From: Alicyclobacillus sp.
GTDB taxonomy: Bacteria; Bacillota; Bacilli; Alicyclobacillales; Alicyclobacillaceae
Length of the DNA stretch: 59,514 nt
Reading direction: 5' to 3'
Assembly: GCA_023511725.1 (NCBI GenBank)
Contig: JAIMAY010000014.1
Location: 1-59,514 of the forward strand
Position numbers and translations under genes: made by a program
In this document: positions 7,520 to 37,749 of the stretch, piece after piece
How positions within the stretch are numbered: position 1 is the stretch's first letter
Layout: every line of letters begins with the position of its first letter
Notes under the pieces: generated by a model
Seen by the model: only the letters and a program-made list of their open reading frames with translations
Database searches by the model: none
Told to the model about the DNA's origin: nothing

Positions 7520-7688
7520 CCCGTGAAGCCTCCGGGGGCCATGCCTGCACCGGATGGGCGCAGGCATGCCTGATTCGATAGTTCCACTTTATACCGCGAC
7601 ACGCCGGAATTCTATGGGAAATGTCACCCCAATGGCCGGACGGTGTGCTGGGGCACTCCAACGCTGGCCGTGTAGATTTCATCCTCGC

Positions 7689-7704
7689 TGTGATGCGCGT
7701 CACG
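7689..7704. promoter_or_regulatory. FNR/CRP-family operator in divergent promoter region
   Basis: TGTGATGCGCGTCACG matches the Bacillus-type FNR/CRP consensus TGTGA-N6-TCACA except the last base. A -10-like TAGAGT at 7726-7731 places a start point near 7738, so the site is centred about 41.5 bases upstream: class II activator geometry for the DUF2249 operon. The same box and spacing recur at 40780. Confidence 0.65.
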
Positions 7705-7769
7705 AAGCCCGTCGGTCACATTCGCTAGAGTGGGCGTTGGAACCACATTTCACGGGAGGTTGACCATCG

Positions 7770-8009
7770 ATGAGTGAATTCGCGTACACGGTTCGCGCGA
7801 CCGAGTATCCGCCGCATATGAAGCACCGCGTGATCTTTGAGACGTTTGATAAGCTGGAACCTGGCCAGGCCATGCTGCTGGTGAATGATCACGATCCGGT
7901 TCCGCTCCGCTACCAGTTTGAACTGGAGCGCCCCGGCCTGTTCTCGTGGGAGTACATCGAGCGCGGCCCGCAACTGTTTCAGGTGCGCATCGGCCGGGTG
8001 GCAGAATGA
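7770..8009 (+). CDS. DUF2249 domain protein
   Basis: 79 residues covering a single DUF2249 domain, recognisable from HRVIFETFDKLEPGQAMLLVNDHDPVPLRYQFE and the C-terminal GPQLFQVRIGR. The domain has a TusA/SirA-like fold and is often found with hemerythrin-like, NnrS-like and denitrification-associated proteins; its biochemical function is not established. ATG 7770 follows GGGAGGTTGACC. Its stop overlaps the next ATG (ATGA). The FNR-type site about 70 bases upstream suggests induction at low oxygen or by NO. Confidence 0.85.
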   Translation: MSEFAYTVRATEYPPHMKHRVIFETFDKLEPGQAMLLVNDHDPVPLRYQFELERPGLFSWEYIERGPQLFQVRIGRVAE

Positions 8010-8500
8010 CCCCGGTGGTCCGTTGGCTCCCGGTGGGGCACATTGCGCATGGCTATCGACGCGTACTTCTCGTCGAGTCGAATGGCGCGATTCGGCACGT
8101 TGTGGTACTGGTGCCGATGCCTTATGAAGCGGTGTACCAGGTCCGTCAGCGGGCGCGCGAAACTCCTCCGTCTGATCCGTCGTTGTGGTGGGGCCTGGCG
8201 GTCATCCGCCGTCTCCTCGCAGAAGGTGTTTTGTTGAACCCGGACAACCCGGATGTGGCGGACGACGGCTTCATCCAACTGCGCCCGCCGTGGCCGGAGG
8301 ACGCCGACCTGTTGTCGATTGACGACTTTGAGGCGGCCGTACGTCAGGGATACTACACGCTGACGCCCGCAGGGGAGGGAAGTCCGAATGGCCCGCGTTG
8401 TAGTGACGGGACCTGCCACGCTGAAGATTCACGTGACCCTGCAGGACGCTGTGGAGATGGTGTCCGAGGCCGCCCGCGATGTGCAGCGGTACGCGCATGA
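8006..8500 (+). CDS. Hypothetical protein in DUF2249 cluster, overlaps next gene by 113 bases
   Basis: 164 residues from ATG 8006, which overlaps the DUF2249 stop. I recognise no family. Residues 1-125 look like a normal soluble domain (VRWLPVGHIAHGY, WGLAVIRRLLAEGVLL, PPWPEDADLLSIDDFEAAV). The last 38 residues are read out of frame through the start of the following gene and have shadow-like composition (Cys, Arg, Gly, Pro). This is either a true long overlap or a sign that a stop codon near 8388 has been lost by a frameshift. Co-transcription with the DUF2249 gene is almost certain from the overlap. Confidence 0.7.
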   Translation: MTPVVRWLPVGHIAHGYRRVLLVESNGAIRHVVVLVPMPYEAVYQVRQRARETPPSDPSLWWGLAVIRRLLAEGVLLNPDNPDVADDGFIQLRPPWPEDADLLSIDDFEAAVRQGYYTLTPAGEGSPNGPRCSDGTCHAEDSRDPAGRCGDGVRGRPRCAAVRA

Positions 8501-8738
8501 CATCGTGACCATCTACGAGAAGATGCCGCTGTTCGATTTCGTGAACTTCTGCTTCTACGCGTATGACAGCGCACGTCTGTTTGAACGCCAATTGGGCGTG
8601 GATCCGCGCAACTACGCGTCGTTTTCACTTGACGCGCCGGACGCTTTTTTCTATGCGCTGTATGGCGGGATGGCCGGGTTGTACGAGCGGGCAAAGGCAG
8701 CGCTGGAACCGCAGTCATCGCGGACTCAGGACGCCTGA
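8388..8738 (+). CDS. Hypothetical protein, last gene of DUF2249 cluster
   Basis: 116 residues, soluble, mixed helical, unrecognised. It contains EAARDVQRYAHDIVTIYEKM and an aromatic-rich centre (LFDFVNFCFYAYDSARLFE, FFYALYGGMAGLYERA). ATG 8388 has GGGGAGGGAAG upstream. It ends 27 bases before a strong intrinsic terminator, so the unit is DUF2249 plus two unknown proteins, probably controlled by the FNR-type site at 7689. Confidence 0.75.
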   Translation: MARVVVTGPATLKIHVTLQDAVEMVSEAARDVQRYAHDIVTIYEKMPLFDFVNFCFYAYDSARLFERQLGVDPRNYASFSLDAPDAFFYALYGGMAGLYERAKAALEPQSSRTQDA

Positions 8739-31019: not shown

Positions 31020-31192
31020 GAGGTTCCTCCGCTCCGGCCGGCATTCACATGGCGCCGGCAGTTTGGTTTGATTATAGGAGATGCGTGACGACTGGGGAAA
31101 GCACCGAAGCCAAAGAACACGGTGGATCCATTCGCCAATCTTGGAGCGCTGGACAAGCGCGCTGGCTTGGTGCCCTGCGGGAGGCGATACAC

Positions 31193-32008
31193 GTGCAACC
31201 ACCATCACCGGATTCGCGCGGCGCCGCCATCCGTTTTGACCACGCGGGGGCGGCCGTGCTGGCTGGGGAAGGGAATCACGACAAGGTACGGAACGGGGAA
31301 GAGGGCGGCAGCCTGCGCTGGCTTCTGCGAGACGTGAACGGACGGGTGGAGCCCGGCCAGTGCGTGGCCATCATTGGTCCCTCCGGCTCGGGCAAAAGCA
31401 CGCTACTGTCCTTGTGCAATCTGCTGCGCACACCCAGCGCCGGTCACGTGTTCGTAGATGAGGTGGAGGTTCGCGCCTGGCGGCCGTCGGAGCTGCGTCG
31501 GCGCGTGGCGATGGTGTTTCAGCAGCCGGTCATGTTGCCGGGGACGGTCCGCGACAATATCGAAGCAGCTCCGCGCCTGCACGGTCTGCCGCTACCAGAT
31601 GCGCGAGAGCTGCTGGAGCGTGTGGGGCTGTTCGCGAGCATGGCGGAACAGCCCGCCGACGGACTCTCCGGCGGGCAGCGCCAGCGCGTGGCCCTGGCCC
31701 GCGCGCTGGCGCAGCGACCCGCGGCGCTGCTGCTCGACGAAGTGACATCAGCGCTGGATGCCGACGGCGTGCGCACCGTGGAGGCCGCCATCCTGGCGTG
31801 GCGACGGGAGACGGGAGGAACTGTGATGTGGGTGACCCATGACCTGGTCCAGGCCCGGCGTGTCAGTCATGTAACATGGGTGGTCCTGGAGGGGCGCATT
31901 GCGGCGCAGGGGGAGACGGAGAAAGTGTTCGCCTCGCCGCCTTCGGAGGCGGTGCGGGCATTTTTGGCTGGAGCCCAGCGGCCGGGGCAAGGAGAGGATA
32001 CCCCATGA
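31193..32008 (+). CDS. fetA: FetA-like ABC ATPase (iron/metal exporter)
   Basis: 271 residues. Walker A GPSGSGKST, Q-loop VFQQPVMLPGTVRDNI, signature LSGGQRQRVALARALA, Walker B LLLDEVTSALDADG and H-loop VTHD. The VMLPGTVRDNI segment and the UPF0014 partner point to FetA (YbbL/YjkB). GTG 31193 with GGGAGGCGA 8 bases upstream is favoured; the frame is open to 31049 but has no ribosome site. About 25 hydrophilic residues precede the usual domain start. It overlaps fetB by four bases. Confidence 0.83.
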   Translation: MQPPSPDSRGAAIRFDHAGAAVLAGEGNHDKVRNGEEGGSLRWLLRDVNGRVEPGQCVAIIGPSGSGKSTLLSLCNLLRTPSAGHVFVDEVEVRAWRPSELRRRVAMVFQQPVMLPGTVRDNIEAAPRLHGLPLPDARELLERVGLFASMAEQPADGLSGGQRQRVALARALAQRPAALLLDEVTSALDADGVRTVEAAILAWRRETGGTVMWVTHDLVQARRVSHVTWVVLEGRIAAQGETEKVFASPPSEAVRAFLAGAQRPGQGEDTP

Positions 32009-32769
32009 GCCTTGTGACGCTCGCGTGGACGGTGGCGTTCATCGTGATTGCGATGGTCATCTCGCTGTGGCAAAAGCTCAACCTCGAGCGCGATCTCGCC
32101 ATCTCCGCCATCCGCTGCGCCGTCCAACTTCTGGTGGTCGGTTATATTCTGAAGGTGGTGTTCGGGCTGTCGCGCTGGCCGTTCACCACACTCATGGTGA
32201 TGCTCATGTGGTCGGTGGCGGTGTGGAACGCGTCGAGGCGCGGGCGCGCGGTACCCGGCGCGTGGTGGAAGGTGGCGTGCGGCATTGGCCTCACGGAGGT
32301 GGTGACGCAGGGGTTGTTGCTCGGGCTGAGGATTGTGCCGGCCACCCCGCAATACGTGATTCCCATCAGCGGGATGATCATCGGCAACGCCATGGTGGTG
32401 GCGGGGCTGTTGCTGGACAGGCTTCAGGCGCAGGCGAGGGCGCAACGCGACGAGATCCGCACCTGGCTTGCGCTCGGGGCGCGACCGACGCAGGCCGGCC
32501 GCGGCGTGCTGCGCGCCGCCGTGCGCGCCAGCCTCATCCCCACCATCGACAGCACGAAGACCACCGGTCTCGTGCAACTCCCGGGCATGATGACGGGCCA
32601 GATCATCGCCGGCGCGGACCCCATTCAGGCGGTGCGTTACCAGGTGCTGATCCTGTTCACGCTGCTGGCCGCGGCAGCCATCACGGCGATGACCGTGGGA
32701 CTGCTCTCCTACACCAGCCTGTTCAACGCGTATGAGCAACTGCGGTTCGATGTGGAGCTACACCGGTGA
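32005..32769 (+). CDS. fetB: FetB-like UPF0014 membrane protein
   Basis: 254 residues, about seven helices. UPF0014 signature segments are LERDLAISAIRCAVQLLVVGYIL, ISGMIIGNAM, EIRTWLALGARPTQA and PTIDSTKTTGLVQLPGMMTG followed by QIIAGADPIQAVRYQ. In E. coli FetAB exports iron and improves oxidative-stress resistance. ATG 32005 overlaps the fetA stop (ATGA), with AAGGAGAGG upstream. A short GAGCCGG/CCGGCTC hairpin follows the stop, without a T tract. Confidence 0.88.
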   Translation: MSLVTLAWTVAFIVIAMVISLWQKLNLERDLAISAIRCAVQLLVVGYILKVVFGLSRWPFTTLMVMLMWSVAVWNASRRGRAVPGAWWKVACGIGLTEVVTQGLLLGLRIVPATPQYVIPISGMIIGNAMVVAGLLLDRLQAQARAQRDEIRTWLALGARPTQAGRGVLRAAVRASLIPTIDSTKTTGLVQLPGMMTGQIIAGADPIQAVRYQVLILFTLLAAAAITAMTVGLLSYTSLFNAYEQLRFDVELHR

Positions 32770-33040
32770 GCGGGAGCCGGGTACCGGCTCGTCAAGTGAG
32801 ATAATGCCACCGTGTGGCTAATCGGTCACGCTGTTGACTTTGCTCCGCCGGCGCGAGTTATATCCACGGTCGCCCCTTCGTCAAGAGACGCTGCGCGCGC
32901 CCTTTGGAACGCCCTTGACGGCACTCCTGCAGGCTGAATGTGCATTTGGGAGACAAGGCCAAGGTTTGCGTGTGGCATGCGCGCCCATCTCCTTGCGAGA
33001 ATTTTGTATGTGGGATGTCGCGTGATCACGAATCTCTTCT

Positions 33041-34252
33041 TTATGGTTCGCCTCTCGAAAGTTCTTCTATCCTCGAGCGAAGCTCACTCGGGGAAAACTG
33101 TGAGGGTGGCATCAGACCCTCAAGAGCGTTCCATAGCTGGTCACCGAGAATGGCCAATGCAGCTGTGAACCATTCCTTCACCAGACGGGGCTCATGAAGC
33201 TTATCGAATAGAATGACCTTCCACAGAAAGAGGCGACCGGCCTTGAGCATGTCTTGGCCATTAAGGAGGCGACATGCCATATCCACATGGTGCAGGGCTT
33301 CGTCATAATCATTCGATAGAAAGTGCAGCCTGGCGTACTCTTCGTAAACACTCACCAGTGCCATGGTATTCTGACGTACGGAGAAATGCTTCTTGGCGGT
33401 TTCCAAACACTGTGCTGCACAGGCGAAGTCCCCCGTGTCCAGCCAAAGTACGGCAAGGTTATGCACGCACATGAAGTATCTCTCCACATCGCGGAGCTCG
33501 TAGATGTCCTTTGCCGCTTGTGTAGCCTTGATTGCCTCAGGAAGCAGCCCCAAACTTCGGTAGCAAACGCCAAGGCCGTGCAAACACTTTGCCTTGCCTA
33601 ACACGTCGTTGTGACGCTCCGCCATGCCAAGCGCTGTCTCAAAGGCGTCGACTGCATCCTGAAAGTTGCGCATCTCCAGCAGGGTACTCCCCAAGTTCAA
33701 CCAGGCCCGAAGCAAGACCTCGCTTGGCGGATTGCGGTCAATGATGTCTCGGTACACCCAAGCTGCACGGTCCCATTGGCGAAGGTTAAAAAAGCCGTGT
33801 CCCAACCGTATGCTGGCCTCCCAGTACAGATGAGACGGTGCACTTTCTGCTGCGGCGCAAAGCAGGGTCGTGGACAATGCATCCAGCAGCTCGGGTGTAT
33901 AGGGTGAGCATTCAGACCAAGCCAGAACGCCTTCTAGCATTTGGTCTGCAAGGCGAAGACCGAAGAACTTTCTCCAAGCCACACGGAGTTTGGCGACATT
34001 TCTCGTCTGCCTGCCCTTCTCCAGCAGTGCCAGCGCTTCCTGATACGACGTCTCATATTCGAGAAAGGGTACCAAGGACTCCAACGGAACGTCCAGTCGC
34101 TGCGCCAGTAGCCGCAGAGTTTCGAGTGAGGGTCGCACCTTGCCATGCTCAATTTGGCTGAGATAGGAGCGGTCAAATAAGCCTTCGGCAACCTGCGCTT
34201 GGGTCAAACCTTTGCTCAAACGTATGCGCCGGACTGCGGCCCCGACATCCAT
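33041..34252 (-). CDS. HTH-XRE/TPR transcriptional regulator (RNPP-like)
   Basis: 403 residues: an XRE helix-turn-helix at 1-60 (RRIRLSKGLTQAQVAEGLFD, YLSQIEHGKVRPSLETLRLL) followed by a helical repeat region to the end. Clear TPR-like units occur around 165-300 (WLNLGSTLLEMRNFQDAVDA, KAKCLHGLGVCYRSLGLLPE, VHNLAVLWLDTGDFACAAQC). This is the architecture of peptide-responsive RNPP regulators (PlcR, NprR, PrgX). Divergent, 99 bases away, is a gene for a small secreted peptide that is a plausible ligand precursor. The gene and its neighbours have visibly lower GC than the flanking sequence, suggesting acquisition. Peptide binding is inference. Confidence 0.85.
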   Translation of the reverse strand: MDVGAAVRRIRLSKGLTQAQVAEGLFDRSYLSQIEHGKVRPSLETLRLLAQRLDVPLESLVPFLEYETSYQEALALLEKGRQTRNVAKLRVAWRKFFGLRLADQMLEGVLAWSECSPYTPELLDALSTTLLCAAAESAPSHLYWEASIRLGHGFFNLRQWDRAAWVYRDIIDRNPPSEVLLRAWLNLGSTLLEMRNFQDAVDAFETALGMAERHNDVLGKAKCLHGLGVCYRSLGLLPEAIKATQAAKDIYELRDVERYFMCVHNLAVLWLDTGDFACAAQCLETAKKHFSVRQNTMALVSVYEEYARLHFLSNDYDEALHHVDMACRLLNGQDMLKAGRLFLWKVILFDKLHEPRLVKEWFTAALAILGDQLWNALEGLMPPSQFSPSELRSRIEELSRGEP

Positions 34253-34351
34253 GTTGTTCGCCTGCCTTCACTTATGAGAGAACGAGTCACACACGTGAGT
34301 TGTCGGTTTCTGGCATAATTCCATTGTACACAGATAGTAGGGGTATGGGTG

Positions 34352-34534
34352 ATGCTAACACTGGGAAAGAGGCGACTATTGTATTCCATGTCGACACTCG
34401 TCGTCTTGGTTATGAGCAACTGCCAACATGGAGCCCACATCTTCGTGATGGGGGCTCCTCCCGTAAAACGTGACACGATGACTACTTGTGATGGCTACAT
34501 GTATGTTCACGCAGAAGGGACTTTGAAGCAGTGA
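34352..34534 (+). CDS. Small secreted or membrane microprotein, candidate signalling pre-peptide
   Basis: 60 residues from ATG 34352 (GTG 34349 is also in frame). It has a basic start (KRR at 6-8), a hydrophobic core (LLYSMSTLVVLVM, 9-21) and a hydrophilic tail with two cysteines (24 and 46), ending YVHAEGTLKQ. That is the layout of exported pro-peptides such as Phr, PapR or NprX precursors. Cys24 is preceded by MSN, which is a poor lipobox. AGGGGT is upstream. Its TGA overlaps the GTG of the large membrane protein (GTGA), so translation is coupled. It is divergent from the HTH-TPR regulator. I recognise no family. Confidence 0.5.
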   Translation: MLTLGKRRLLYSMSTLVVLVMSNCQHGAHIFVMGAPPVKRDTMTTCDGYMYVHAEGTLKQ

Positions 34535-36414
34535 ATCTCCCATGGGTCATCGGAACATTGGTAGCCATCTTCAATGCGTGGATGGCCACCCGGCGTTTTC
34601 GCTTCCAGAGAGTCGCAGACCGGGCCGTGACGTTTTCACTTATTGTCGTTATCGACATCGTGTACAGCACCTTCGCCGCTGGCGTCCTGGGCATACTCTC
34701 CTCCGTGGGCTTCATGCTATGCAATCTCGTTGGAGCCTTCCTCATCCTTGGGGTGATGTGGATCTGTGGCCTTCTGCCACGGCGGACGACACCCTTCCGC
34801 CCAAATCGAGGGAGGATATCTTTTCGCCATCTTGAACGTCCGGCCAGGTGGGTCATAGCTATCCTGGCGGTGTTGTTGCTGTTGCTTGCCGTCATCGGTG
34901 TGATCCTGCCGCCCTTTGCGTATGACGAACTCGGATACCATCTCGTTGCGGTCGCCGTATGGGTGCAGCAACATCGAATCGTCGACACAACGCTGTCCAT
35001 CTGGGCCAATGCCTACCCGAAAAACGCTGAGTTGCTGTACTGCTGGCTGTACCTTGCCACACATAGCGATCTGCTCGTCCATCTTGGGCAATGGATCTTC
35101 GCCGCCTTGGGTATGGTGTATACCACCGCCTGCGCCAGACGCATCGGCCTGGGTGAAACAGGGGCTGTGGTTGCCGGCACGCTCTTTTTCCTGACGCCCA
35201 CGGTGATGCTTCAAAGCATCACCGATTACAACGACGTGGCTTTCACATCGATGTTCCTGGCATTTTTCTATTTTTACCTGGTTTCGGTCAGAGAGGGCTT
35301 TCGGTTGCGGTACAGCTTTCTCGCAGGTCTGAGCGGAGGCATGGCGCTCGGCATCAAGTCCTCGGCCGCTGCGTACATCGGGGTGTGCTTGGCTTTTGCG
35401 TTCATCAAAATGTGCCGACTATGGGCAAAGCGCACCGTCAGCCTGCGTTTTGTGGCAACCCAGGTCACCCTGGTTGTGGTTCCGCTCCTTGGAATCGGAA
35501 CGTATTGGTACATCCACAACTGGGTGGTTCATCACAATCCTATGTATCCATTCACTGTGAGTGTGTTGGGGCATGTCCTGTTTCCCGGGCTTGGCAGTGT
35601 TCATGACCTGATCATGGTGCCCAACACACCTGATGCGCTGAAAGGACTGCCCTGGTGGCAACAAGTGTTCATCTCGTGGACAAGCTTTCCCACCTACTAT
35701 GCCTATGACATGCAGATAGGCGGTCTCGGGCTTCAGTGGACGTGGTTGGAACTGCCCTGCGCTGTGCTGGTGACCGGTTACGCCCTGCGGCGGAGGCGGG
35801 ATTTGCTGATGGTCATCCTGCCGCTTGTCATCATTTTTGTGCTTCAGCCGTCGAATTGGTGGGGCAGGTACACGCTGTTTCTCGCTGCGCTGGGTGGGTG
35901 GGCCGTGTCGATGGTGATCGGCTGGATCCGGCAACAAACGCTTCGAACCGCACTGTACATGGCCACGATAGTGGGCATCTGCGCATCGTATGTCCTTGGC
36001 ATTGTGGCGTTTGCACGAACGAACCACAGGGATTCCAATCTCGTCATGCAAGCTTTGTTGACGGCGATACGAACCGAACCCTCGCAGCGCACGGTTGGCC
36101 ATGTGGTTTTCCCGGAGTACCGGTGGGTGGACAGCATATCGTCCACGGCAAGTATTGGATGCACGGATGATCTGCCATACGTGTATCCCCTTTTCGGGCG
36201 CCATGCTGAACACCCGGTGTATCTCGTGACCAGTGCAGATCTCGTGCAGACCGTTCAGCACCATCACATTCAATACATCATGTGTAAGGAAGGTGACGAT
36301 GTTGACCGCCTCGCCCGGCAAATACCCGCTTTCTTCCACCTCCTCGGCGATAACCATGCCTATCCGGTTTATCAGGTCCGGGGTGTTCCCGATGCTCATG
36401 CTCGTTCTTCGTGA
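34531..36414 (+). CDS. Large GT-C-like membrane glycosyltransferase (GT39/ArnT-like topology)
   Basis: 627 residues, 12 or more helices. After three N-terminal helices, the extracytoplasmic segment PPFAYDELGYHL carries adjacent acidic residues (D-E) in the position of the GT-C catalytic Asp. GLSGGMALGIKSSA resembles a conserved cytoplasmic GT-C loop. A C-terminal soluble extracytoplasmic part (about 520-620) follows. Such enzymes use polyprenyl-phosphate sugars. The start is GTG 34531, overlapping the microprotein stop, with AAGGGA 11 bases upstream. It overlaps the prenyltransferase gene by 23 bases; that gene may supply the lipid-linked pentose. Donor and acceptor are unknown. Confidence 0.75.
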   Translation: MNLPWVIGTLVAIFNAWMATRRFRFQRVADRAVTFSLIVVIDIVYSTFAAGVLGILSSVGFMLCNLVGAFLILGVMWICGLLPRRTTPFRPNRGRISFRHLERPARWVIAILAVLLLLLAVIGVILPPFAYDELGYHLVAVAVWVQQHRIVDTTLSIWANAYPKNAELLYCWLYLATHSDLLVHLGQWIFAALGMVYTTACARRIGLGETGAVVAGTLFFLTPTVMLQSITDYNDVAFTSMFLAFFYFYLVSVREGFRLRYSFLAGLSGGMALGIKSSAAAYIGVCLAFAFIKMCRLWAKRTVSLRFVATQVTLVVVPLLGIGTYWYIHNWVVHHNPMYPFTVSVLGHVLFPGLGSVHDLIMVPNTPDALKGLPWWQQVFISWTSFPTYYAYDMQIGGLGLQWTWLELPCAVLVTGYALRRRRDLLMVILPLVIIFVLQPSNWWGRYTLFLAALGGWAVSMVIGWIRQQTLRTALYMATIVGICASYVLGIVAFARTNHRDSNLVMQALLTAIRTEPSQRTVGHVVFPEYRWVDSISSTASIGCTDDLPYVYPLFGRHAEHPVYLVTSADLVQTVQHHHIQYIMCKEGDDVDRLARQIPAFFHLLGDNHAYPVYQVRGVPDAHARSS

Positions 36415-37255
36415 AATGCGTCCGATGCAATGGAGCAAAAACGCATTTGTATTCGCGGCACTCATCTTTACCGTCCCGCATATCAACGCAGGGATGATTG
36501 GAAGATGCTTGGGATGCTTTCTCCTTTTTTGCCTCGTATCAGGTACCGTCTATATTGTCAACGACTTCATGGATCTTCCCAATGATATGCAGCATCCGGA
36601 AAAGCGCTCACGCCCCATGGCCTCGGGAGCACTCCCCACTTCAACAGCCCTTGTCGCCGCAAGCGTGGCTGCAGTCATTGCGCTGACCGGTGCCTGGATA
36701 TTCTACTCAGGGGAGTTGTTCCTCTGCATCCTCGGCTATTTGATCCTCAATTTGGGGTATTCGATCCGGCTCAAACACATCGCTATTCTCGACATCTGTG
36801 CCATTGCGGCGGGATTTGTGATACGGGCCGTGGCCGGCGGCGTGGCCATCGGAGTGGAGCTCACCCCGTGGTTTCTGATTTGTGCATTGATGCTGTCGCT
36901 GTTTCTGGCAACCGGGAAGCGTCGGCATGAGTACGTGCTGTGGAACAAAAGCGGCGTCTCGTCCCGGCCTGTGATGAATCAGTACTCTCTTGAGCTCCTT
37001 AACCAACTCAGCAGCATCACCGCCACCTGCGTCATTCTGTCGTATGCCCTATTTACCCTCAGTTCACAGCACGCTCGCCCTCTGATGGTCACCATCCCCT
37101 TCGTGATTTATGGGGTGATGCGGTATCTCAAGATTGTCTATACCGAGGGGGCAGGGGGTAAACCTGAAGTGACGCTGGTGGAGGACAAGCATATCCTCGT
37201 CACGGTTGTCCTCTTTGCCATTACCGTTGTGATGGTTCTGGCGCTCAAGGACTGA
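36392..37255 (+). CDS. UbiA-family prenyltransferase, decaprenyl-phosphate phosphoribosyltransferase-like
   Basis: 287 residues, about eight to nine helices. The N-terminus REMRPMQWSKNAFVFAALIF, then YIVNDFMDLPNDMQHPEKRSRPMASGALP with the NDxxDxxxD and KRxRP pattern, are typical of DPPR synthase (Rv3806c-like), which joins 5-phosphoribosyl diphosphate to polyprenyl phosphate. A second Asp segment region is LDICAIAAGFVIRAVAGG. ATG 36392 has GGGGTG upstream; ATG 36398 is an alternative. It overlaps the GT-C gene. A hairpin lies 37 bases downstream. The phosphoribosyl role is inferred from family likeness. Confidence 0.83.
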   Translation: MLMLVLREMRPMQWSKNAFVFAALIFTVPHINAGMIGRCLGCFLLFCLVSGTVYIVNDFMDLPNDMQHPEKRSRPMASGALPTSTALVAASVAAVIALTGAWIFYSGELFLCILGYLILNLGYSIRLKHIAILDICAIAAGFVIRAVAGGVAIGVELTPWFLICALMLSLFLATGKRRHEYVLWNKSGVSSRPVMNQYSLELLNQLSSITATCVILSYALFTLSSQHARPLMVTIPFVIYGVMRYLKIVYTEGAGGKPEVTLVEDKHILVTVVLFAITVVMVLALKD

Positions 37256-37292
37256 GTCAATTGAGTTCGCTTTCAAATGACGCATCGATTTG

Positions 37293-37330
37293 CCCTGCAC
37301 CCCTCCCTAAGCTGAAGGAGGGGTGCAGGG
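37293..37330. terminator. Perfect hairpin after prenyltransferase gene
   Basis: Arms CCCTGCACCCCTCC and GGAGGGGTGCAGGG are 14 bases and perfectly complementary, with a 10-base loop. Neither side has a clear T run, so it may be a terminator or an mRNA-end stabiliser. The remaining 115 bases to the next gene hold nothing I recognise. Confidence 0.5.
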
Positions 37331-37446
37331 TGAATGTCAATCAAAGTATCTACGGTCGTCGCAGCATCTCTGAATCGTGTAGGCTACGGATGACCCTGTG
37401 GCATGCACCGTCAAACAGGCATGCGCGCCCATGGAGTTTGCCTAGA

Positions 37447-37749
37447 TCATTCGTCCTCCCCGCCCCAAAACACCTCGTCGAACTTCTCGCTGAAGACCTC
37501 GAACACTTCCCGGTGGAGGTCGTCGTCTTCGATGGTGAGGTAGGTGACGGTGCCGTCGTCGTCCACCACCATCTCCAGGACGTCGGAGTAGTCATGTTCG
37601 ATGTCAGCGGGATGGTAGGCGACGTACGTGTGGCCCTTGTAGTCCAACTCCGCCACGAGGGCAATCTGCACCTTCTGCCCGTCTTCACTTTCGAGCTCTG
37701 CCATCAGGTCCCGGTCGTAGATCCGGATTTCCGCATCTTTTTGTGCCAT
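37447..37749 (-). CDS. DUF1292 family protein (YrzB-like)
   Basis: 100 residues, very acidic (pI well below 5), with the DUF1292 core: an N-terminal beta segment, then VQIALVAELDYKGHTYVAYHP, and a C-terminal DDDLHREVFEVFSEKFDEVF. It is usually a small cytoplasmic protein of unknown function near yrrK-type genes in Firmicutes; here it stands alone. GAGGAGGCC lies before ATG 37749. The same frame stays open to 39507 on the opposite strand of ubiB, but this is shadow. Confidence 0.85.
   Translation of the reverse strand: MAQKDAEIRIYDRDLMAELESEDGQKVQIALVAELDYKGHTYVAYHPADIEHDYSDVLEMVVDDDGTVTYLTIEDDDLHREVFEVFSEKFDEVFWGGEDE

Follow-up and report, generated by a model that had tools for sequence, protein, structure and literature searches.

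A divergent regulator, small ORF and enzyme pair in a low-G+C block

The window analysed here (the whole stretch of DNA, 59,514 nt long) comes from a 2.66 Mb genome in 76 contigs, that of a relative of the acidophile Alicyclobacillus and the sole member of its genus among the genomes searched. An HTH-TPR regulator gene faces a small ORF that leads into two membrane-enzyme genes (Table 1), and the ORF list and sequence bear out the places that the initial annotation gave to these four features. Both of the overlaps reported there are also real. The TGA of the small ORF and the GTG start of the GT-C gene share the bases GTGA. The longest UbiA ORF begins at 36233, but ATG 36392 is the likelier start because GGGGTG lies six bases upstream of it and the family alignment agrees; the GT-C and UbiA genes thus overlap by ~20 bases.

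The G+C fraction of 0.536-0.564 in the four 1-kb intervals from 33001 to 37000 is the lowest of the 59 in the window, as had been suspected. Flanking genes are not common to other GT-C loci, except for low-identity matches to an ABC ATPase and an aminotransferase-like protein (the gene lists used for this comparison, and for the Alicyclobacillus contaminans locus below, are naive ORF calls). The low G+C and the mostly unshared flanks agree with the transfer proposed earlier, and the gene block was probably transferred. Immediately before it (31049-32769) are genes for an ABC ATPase and a UPF0014 membrane protein, a pair that we take to be FetAB-like. Neither an Rfam scan of 32700-37500 nor a consensus promoter and terminator scan of 34100-34650 gave a match.

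Table 1 Features of the locus, with ECF sigma factor loci from two related genomes.
Feature	Position	Strand	Remarks
HTH-TPR regulator; RRNPP-like peptide receptor (predicted)	33041..34252	-	403 aa
Weak operator-like palindrome between divergent genes	34283..34302	.	Symmetric matrix from 6 relatives; suggestive only
Candidate exported propeptide ORF	34349..34534	+	61 aa from GTG, or 60 aa from ATG 34352
GT-C membrane glycosyltransferase	34531..36414	+	627 aa; ArnT-like model, PMT_2 near cut-off
UbiA-fold polyprenyl-phosphate phosphoribosyltransferase (PPPRS/DPPR synthase-like)	36392..37255	+	~287 aa
ECF sigma factor loci	L073 1602-3166; L076 3570-5232		A. suci and Alicyclobacillus sp. SP_1

A predicted phosphoribosyltransferase coupled to a GT-C enzyme

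The UbiA protein passes two NCBIfam equivalogs for decaprenyl-phosphate phosphoribosyltransferase (NF008977, 235.9 bits against a cut-off of 234; NF008978, 221.7 against 207) and falls under the cut-off for NF008976 (171.5 against 474) and NF006088 (163.2 against 351). Its profile has as best PDB match the decaprenyl-phosphate phosphoribosyltransferase 8j8j (E 8e-57). The motifs NDFMDLPND (N-D-x-x-D-x-x-x-D, loop II) and RRHE (R-x-x-E, loop IV) are invariant in 7 aligned proteins; the excerpted text of PMC11127046 lists the conserved residues (loop II N, D, D, D; loop IV R, E) as required in the M. tuberculosis enzyme. Curated models, the catalytic residues and the known structure of a homologue all lead us to predict a polyprenyl-phosphate phosphoribosyltransferase, and the earlier description as DPPR-synthase-like stands on all three counts.

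The structure model of the neighbouring membrane protein (pLDDT 80.4) has a GT-C fold closest to ArnT (5f15; Z 23.4, rmsd 4.6, 440 residues aligned). Oligosaccharyltransferases and protein mannosyltransferases follow ArnT in the fold list, with AftA, AftB, AftD and EmbB at Z 12-15. Against PMT_2 the protein scores 25.2 bits, slightly under the 26.1 cut-off. We aligned it with 8 homologues; the profile found no match up to E 1 among PDB sequences.

A Pfam scan of four flanking genes turned up neither a flippase nor a phosphatase, and no MATE or phosphatase domain was found in the pair itself. The ALO domain of DprE1-type proteins (PF04030) has 0 matches in the window genome (G000) and occurs in two of the 11 GT-C genomes (G022 and G017); since no such protein was found in the window genome, ribose is a likelier sugar than arabinose.

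The pair recurs beside different regulators

The GT-C gene occurs in 10 of 61 genomes, the window's own included, and the UbiA gene adjoins it in nine (the exception is G017). Counting A. acidiphilus (G061), which lies outside those 61, 11 genomes with GT-C were found in the order, 10 of them with the two genes side by side. In the phylum sample, GT-C is found in 12 of 397 other genomes. Seventeen phylum loci were listed, of which 13 were tested; three of the remaining four are fragments of places already included, and the fourth is a weak second match. Flanks of at most 1.5 kb contain a UbiA homologue in 8 of the 13. Four loci viewed more widely hold the pair in either order among other genes. 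One of the recurrences (G445, L153 1207-8688) has an S-layer-homology protein, an FAD oxidoreductase, an EamA/SMR-type transporter, UbiA and GT-C in a row, and the transporter is a possible flippase linked to the pair. This recurrence indicates that the module is present in several Bacillota. The initial annotation had held a lipid-linked pentose pathway to be unusual in a Firmicute, a view contradicted by the pair's presence in the order and in other Bacillota and by the candidate systems in gram-positive bacteria, Bacillus among them, that the available portion of PMC11127046 describes.

Two of the 11 GT-C loci in the order (G009, G041) are on contigs that end <200 bases upstream. The other nine divide into four with an HTH-TPR neighbour (the window, A. 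contaminans, A. herbarius and A. acidiphilus), two with an ECF sigma factor and three with neither. The regulators of A. herbarius and A. acidiphilus are only distantly related to that of the window (24-25% identical) and to each other (27%). In both species the HTH-TPR gene faces a secreted protein (183 and 171 aa, 44% identical over 139 aa) that lies between it and the GT-C and UbiA genes. Each gap also has a small exported ORF: one, of 43 aa and ending GLPEPDRAPTLAQFD, starts ~113 nt from the regulator start, and the other, of 45 aa and containing NLPEPSAHCVELSIHNNL, directly precedes the secreted protein, well over 700 nt from the regulator. Upstream of the pair, an ECF sigma factor gene is found two genes away in A. 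suci and ~4.7 kb away on the same strand in Alicyclobacillus sp. SP_1. The gene next to the sigma factor encodes a DUF4179 protein in A. suci, possibly an anti-sigma factor, and has no Pfam match in SP_1. Repeated attachment of regulators is, to us, the most interesting pattern at these GT-C loci.

An RRNPP-like regulator subfamily

The regulator, earlier described as RNPP-type, matches Pfam HTH_3 (1.2e-13) and TPR models, and scores 14.1 bits against RNPP_C, below the 26.5 cut-off. Its structure model (pLDDT 90.9) has the N-terminal HTH and C-terminal TPR superhelix of RRNPP receptors. A structure search returns NprR-NprX at Z 21.9 and Rap-peptide chains at Z 20-22; generic eukaryotic TPR chains reach Z 27, with LGN/Pins chains outscoring NprR. 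TPR folds are general. The sequence profile matches PlcR (2qfc) across profile positions 1-252. Fold and domains therefore fit the earlier description. We grade the protein RRNPP-like and not an RRNPP member, since peptide re-import, TPR binding and a change in transcription are matters for binding and reporter experiments.

The protein belongs to a small Alicyclobacillaceae subfamily whose members are 30-46% identical to it. At E 1e-45 its profile finds only its own genome in 398 genomes sampled from the phylum. The closest relative is A. contaminans (G014), where regulator, GT-C and UbiA lie in the same order as in the window. Plasmid records yield one partial match, on an A. fastidiosus plasmid; there (L088 6807-9514, a 205-kb replicon) a 417-aa ORF separates two pieces of the regulator gene, and the small ORF and operator-like sites are still present. 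Another window-type regulator gene (G062, L087 8439-9440) is broken by an in-frame TAG, and no small exported ORF passing the strict filter was seen beside it.

The 60-residue ORF of the window

Starting 99 nt from the regulator start, the window ORF encodes one lysine and two arginines followed by a hydrophobic run, and passes our charge, hydropathy and position test for an export-like ORF. With a tail of ~40 residues it is longer than the other candidates described below. Its ribosome-site match covers 3 bases only, and its codon score is negative, below the range of the neighbouring genes. A Pfam and NCBIfam scan placed no family over cut-off, and a search of 60 relatives returned noise-level matches only, the strongest (E 0.0077) containing two internal stops and the second standing at 0.039. 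Of the exported microprotein proposed earlier, the ORF, its position and its export-like N-terminus hold up, whereas codons, ribosome site, family and homologues lend it no support.

We gauged chance by Markov shuffles of the gap. An export-like ORF with a ribosome-site match of at least 3 bases arises somewhere in the gap in ~10% of them, and 3% have an ORF at least 61 codons long whose end falls in the GTGA overlap. Of 20,000 shuffles, 1.7% yield an export-like ORF that begins 70-120 nt from the start of the regulator, and 0.1% yield one whose stop lies in the GTGA overlap as well.

No counterpart at the position of the window ORF was found in the A. contaminans gap (555-585 bp). An export-like ORF of 30 aa is present there at a distance of 470 nt, adjoining GT-C, with no ribosome site and the worst codon score. 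The initial annotation had itself named a homologous locus with the enzymes and no microprotein as evidence against signalling, and A. contaminans, with the same gene order and no matching ORF, is such a locus.

Several relatives of the regulator face a conserved candidate peptide

Eight other genomes of the subfamily were tested, the ninth (G062, with the interrupted regulator) having been left out beforehand. In five (G064, G012, G015, G024 and, on the A. fastidiosus plasmid, G063) a divergent exported ORF, 40-51 aa long, begins 78-87 nt from the start of the regulator. In G014, G035 and G036 a matching divergent ORF is absent at that position; the G035 and G036 regulators are 97% identical, so these two make nearly one observation.

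The segment EIPGPGVDVV is identical in G012, G024 and G015, with 6 of its 10 codons differing synonymously, and corresponds to DIPDPGVGIT in G064 and VTSPGVGVT in G063. A P-G-V segment is thus present in the ORFs of all five relatives and absent from that of the window alone, where APPVK is the nearest approach to the proline-rich tails. A segment shared within a subfamily supports an RRNPP-type pair but does not strictly define one. The C-terminal comparison suggested earlier as a search for a conserved mature peptide therefore finds a fixed segment in three relatives, where codons change, and none in the window. Across 59 genomes of the order, the P-G-P pattern matches in nine, four of them at the divergent ORFs and five elsewhere; the G063 version escaped this pattern and was found by separate examination. 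One relative's peptide had no match in plasmid records. Codon statistics are uninformative for the relatives' small ORFs, which also score poorly.

The EIPGPGVDVV ORFs lie beside window-type regulators (L084 from ~2669, L085 from ~8820 on the minus strand, L086 from ~9827) and are a candidate new pheromone family in Alicyclobacillaceae. Directly 3' of the IPGPG ORF in L085 is a ThiF-family gene (7605-8666), which suggests that the cargo of this switch in L085 is a cluster for a modified peptide.

Divergent exported ORFs in other regulator groups

With the window included, 6 of 9 subfamily members pass the position and shape rule at the strict setting, against 0 of 40 other HTH-TPR regulators of these bacteria, under thresholds that were chosen after the ORFs, the window's among them, had been seen. 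At three settings the 70-120 nt rule passes 0, 1 and 3 of the 40, which include the GT-C-linked regulator of A. acidiphilus (L043). When any export-like divergent ORF within 300 nt is accepted, the counts rise to 7, 8 and 10.

Six of the seven regulators with an ORF within 300 nt are of a third kind (L038, L041, L126, L130, L131 and, from A. contaminans, L132), with a GSQSMISLIE-like N-terminus where the sequence was displayed; the seventh (L121) has a 29-aa ORF. The displayed parts of L038 and L131 do not differ. Third-kind ORFs are exported, divergent and 40-62 aa long, and lie at distances other than those of the window subfamily. Their proline-rich tails (for example NLPPEPMVVSSM, SLPPLPVKGIVKLS, TVPEPMVGYQTTHLP and PLPPTPMTVHQTV) carry the motifs LPPEPM, LPPLPV, VPEPM and LPPTPM. 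At least three regulator groups in these bacteria thus have divergent exported small ORFs with proline-rich tails. The third-kind ORFs make divergent peptides a wider habit, and an export-like ORF alone is therefore not specific to the window's subfamily.

A palindrome in the gaps

Six gaps hold a palindrome of rough consensus AGTC(A/T)C-GTGC-G(A/T)GA. When each site and its close relative are removed from the matrix in turn, the gap palindrome ranks first in all six loci of 12-19.5 kb. In G063, which did not contribute to the matrix, a related site that is longer by one base lies in the gap, and a stronger site is found ~540 nt upstream of the regulator. In the window, the site listed in Table 1 is the best in the gap with a symmetric matrix, about 13th of 59,500 window positions; a one-strand matrix prefers a different gap site (rank 41 of 118,990). 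The window's operator-like site is accordingly weak and suggestive only.

Discussion

The sequence itself gives the gene order, the families of both enzymes and a regulator subfamily that commonly faces exported small ORFs. From these we propose, at a little under even confidence, a probably transferred cassette in which an RRNPP-like regulator is divergent from an operon encoding a propeptide, a GT-C enzyme and a polyprenyl-phosphate phosphoribosyltransferase. The small ORF product would be secreted and trimmed, and the trimmed peptide re-imported to bind the TPR superhelix. The regulator would occupy a site between the divergent genes, such that transcription of the operon changes with cell density. 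UbiA would transfer ribose-5-phosphate from PRPP to undecaprenyl phosphate, unlinked proteins would take off the phosphate and flip the lipid, and GT-C would move the ribofuranose onto a surface glycan or protein. The parts of the proposal differ in strength: its enzymatic half is probable, a peptide switch of some kind is evenly poised, and we lean somewhat against the window ORF being the propeptide of that switch. That last reading we rate as plausible only, given the missing P-G-V segment, the weak codon and ribosome-site support and the missing A. contaminans counterpart.

The competitor to be taken most seriously, somewhat less likely than our proposal, keeps the regulator as a genuine controller of GT-C and UbiA and treats the 60-residue ORF as a chance or leader ORF, the ligand being something else or a peptide encoded elsewhere. 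The noise-level matches in relatives, the empty position in A. contaminans, the codon score under gene range and the ease with which shuffled gaps yield an export-like ORF when no position rule is applied all fit it; it is harder to square with the rarity of shuffles that join position, export-like N-terminus and GTGA coupling, and with a subfamily that usually has such an ORF. Improbable by comparison is a genuine exported microprotein that serves the glycosyltransferase as accessory or acceptor and not as a signal. The secreted protein between regulator and GT-C in A. herbarius and A. acidiphilus means that this slot can hold an enzyme partner, and the window ORF is the longest of the candidates. 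Those two species, however, have a separate small exported ORF as well, and the window ORF was not seen to resemble their secreted proteins.

The enzyme assignment has its own challenger, which we consider slightly less probable still: a UbiA-like enzyme using another donor or lipid, in a pair that does not transfer ribofuranose. Function is here assigned by homology, two of four related NCBIfam models are under cut-off, and the flanking genes scanned contain no phosphatase or flippase. Against this stand the two curated equivalog cut-offs passed, the identity of the top PDB match, the invariant catalytic residues and an adjoining GT-C that is nearest to a lipid-linked pentose transferase.

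Much of what the proposed cassette combines is already known, namely RRNPP pairs, Rgg-SHP control of capsule and PPPRS/GT-C systems. Rgg-SHP, PlcR-PapR and NprR-NprX likewise set an HTH and TPR receptor beside a short exported ORF, in Rgg-SHP with the divergent layout of the window locus. The window regulator differs in being a separate sequence subfamily, seen only in Alicyclobacillaceae at the phylum depth given above, in the proline-glycine segment of its relatives and in a peptide role predicted from sequence. The mycobacterial arabinan pathway (DPPR synthase; AftA, AftB, AftD and Emb) also joins a UbiA phosphoribosyltransferase to GT-C enzymes, encoded by neighbouring genes; the window genome, by contrast, has no DprE1-type ALO domain, so arabinose is not expected, and ArnT is the better structural match.

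In the part of PMC7425212 available to us, the AloR-AloP systems of Paenibacillus polymyxa are similarly HTH-TPR regulators with 32-50-aa ORFs that have hydrophobic N-termini, but the Alo ORFs lie immediately 3' of the receptor, whereas window-type ORFs are divergent and upstream. Three-component pentofuranose systems, as set out in the excerpts of PMC11127046, comprise a PPPRS, a MATE flippase and a GT136 GT-C; the window shares a PPPRS with the same catalytic residues and a GT-C enzyme, and differs in lacking a MATE flippase or phosphatase domain (pair and four flanking genes scanned) and in its attached regulator. Peptide quorum sensing over surface carbohydrate has a precedent in Rgg-SHP control of the streptococcal capsule (PMC5913232 and PMC6482233, in the portions consulted), where enzymes, organisms and regulator subfamily differ from those of the window. 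PMC10075063, in its accessible text, counts Alicyclobacillaceae among the families whose biosynthetic clusters hold candidate RRNPP systems, and the terms Alicyclobacill and glycosyl are absent from the main texts of PMC9765709 and PMC12700828. By title, no published report of this gene combination or of IPGPG peptides was found among the matches listed.

A broader and more speculative scenario, which we think unlikely but worth stating, is that a self-contained lipid-linked ribose module, found in Bacillota, has repeatedly been taken over by dedicated switches. Different HTH-TPR regulators in two lineages, each with its own exported pheromone gene, would place surface ribosylation under density control. 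The window ORF would be a fast-diverged precursor of a new RRNPP subfamily (the IPGPG type), which would drive other cargo in sister species and belong to a larger group of Alicyclobacillaceae systems with divergent, proline-rich peptides.

If the proposed cassette is real, communication by peptides would be tied to the addition of pentose to the cell surface in Alicyclobacillus-type bacteria, and the two-enzyme pair would gain a regulatory context. Sister species would also offer a receptor subfamily with an operator and a conserved candidate peptide (IPGPGVDVV), directly testable there ahead of the more difficult case of the window.
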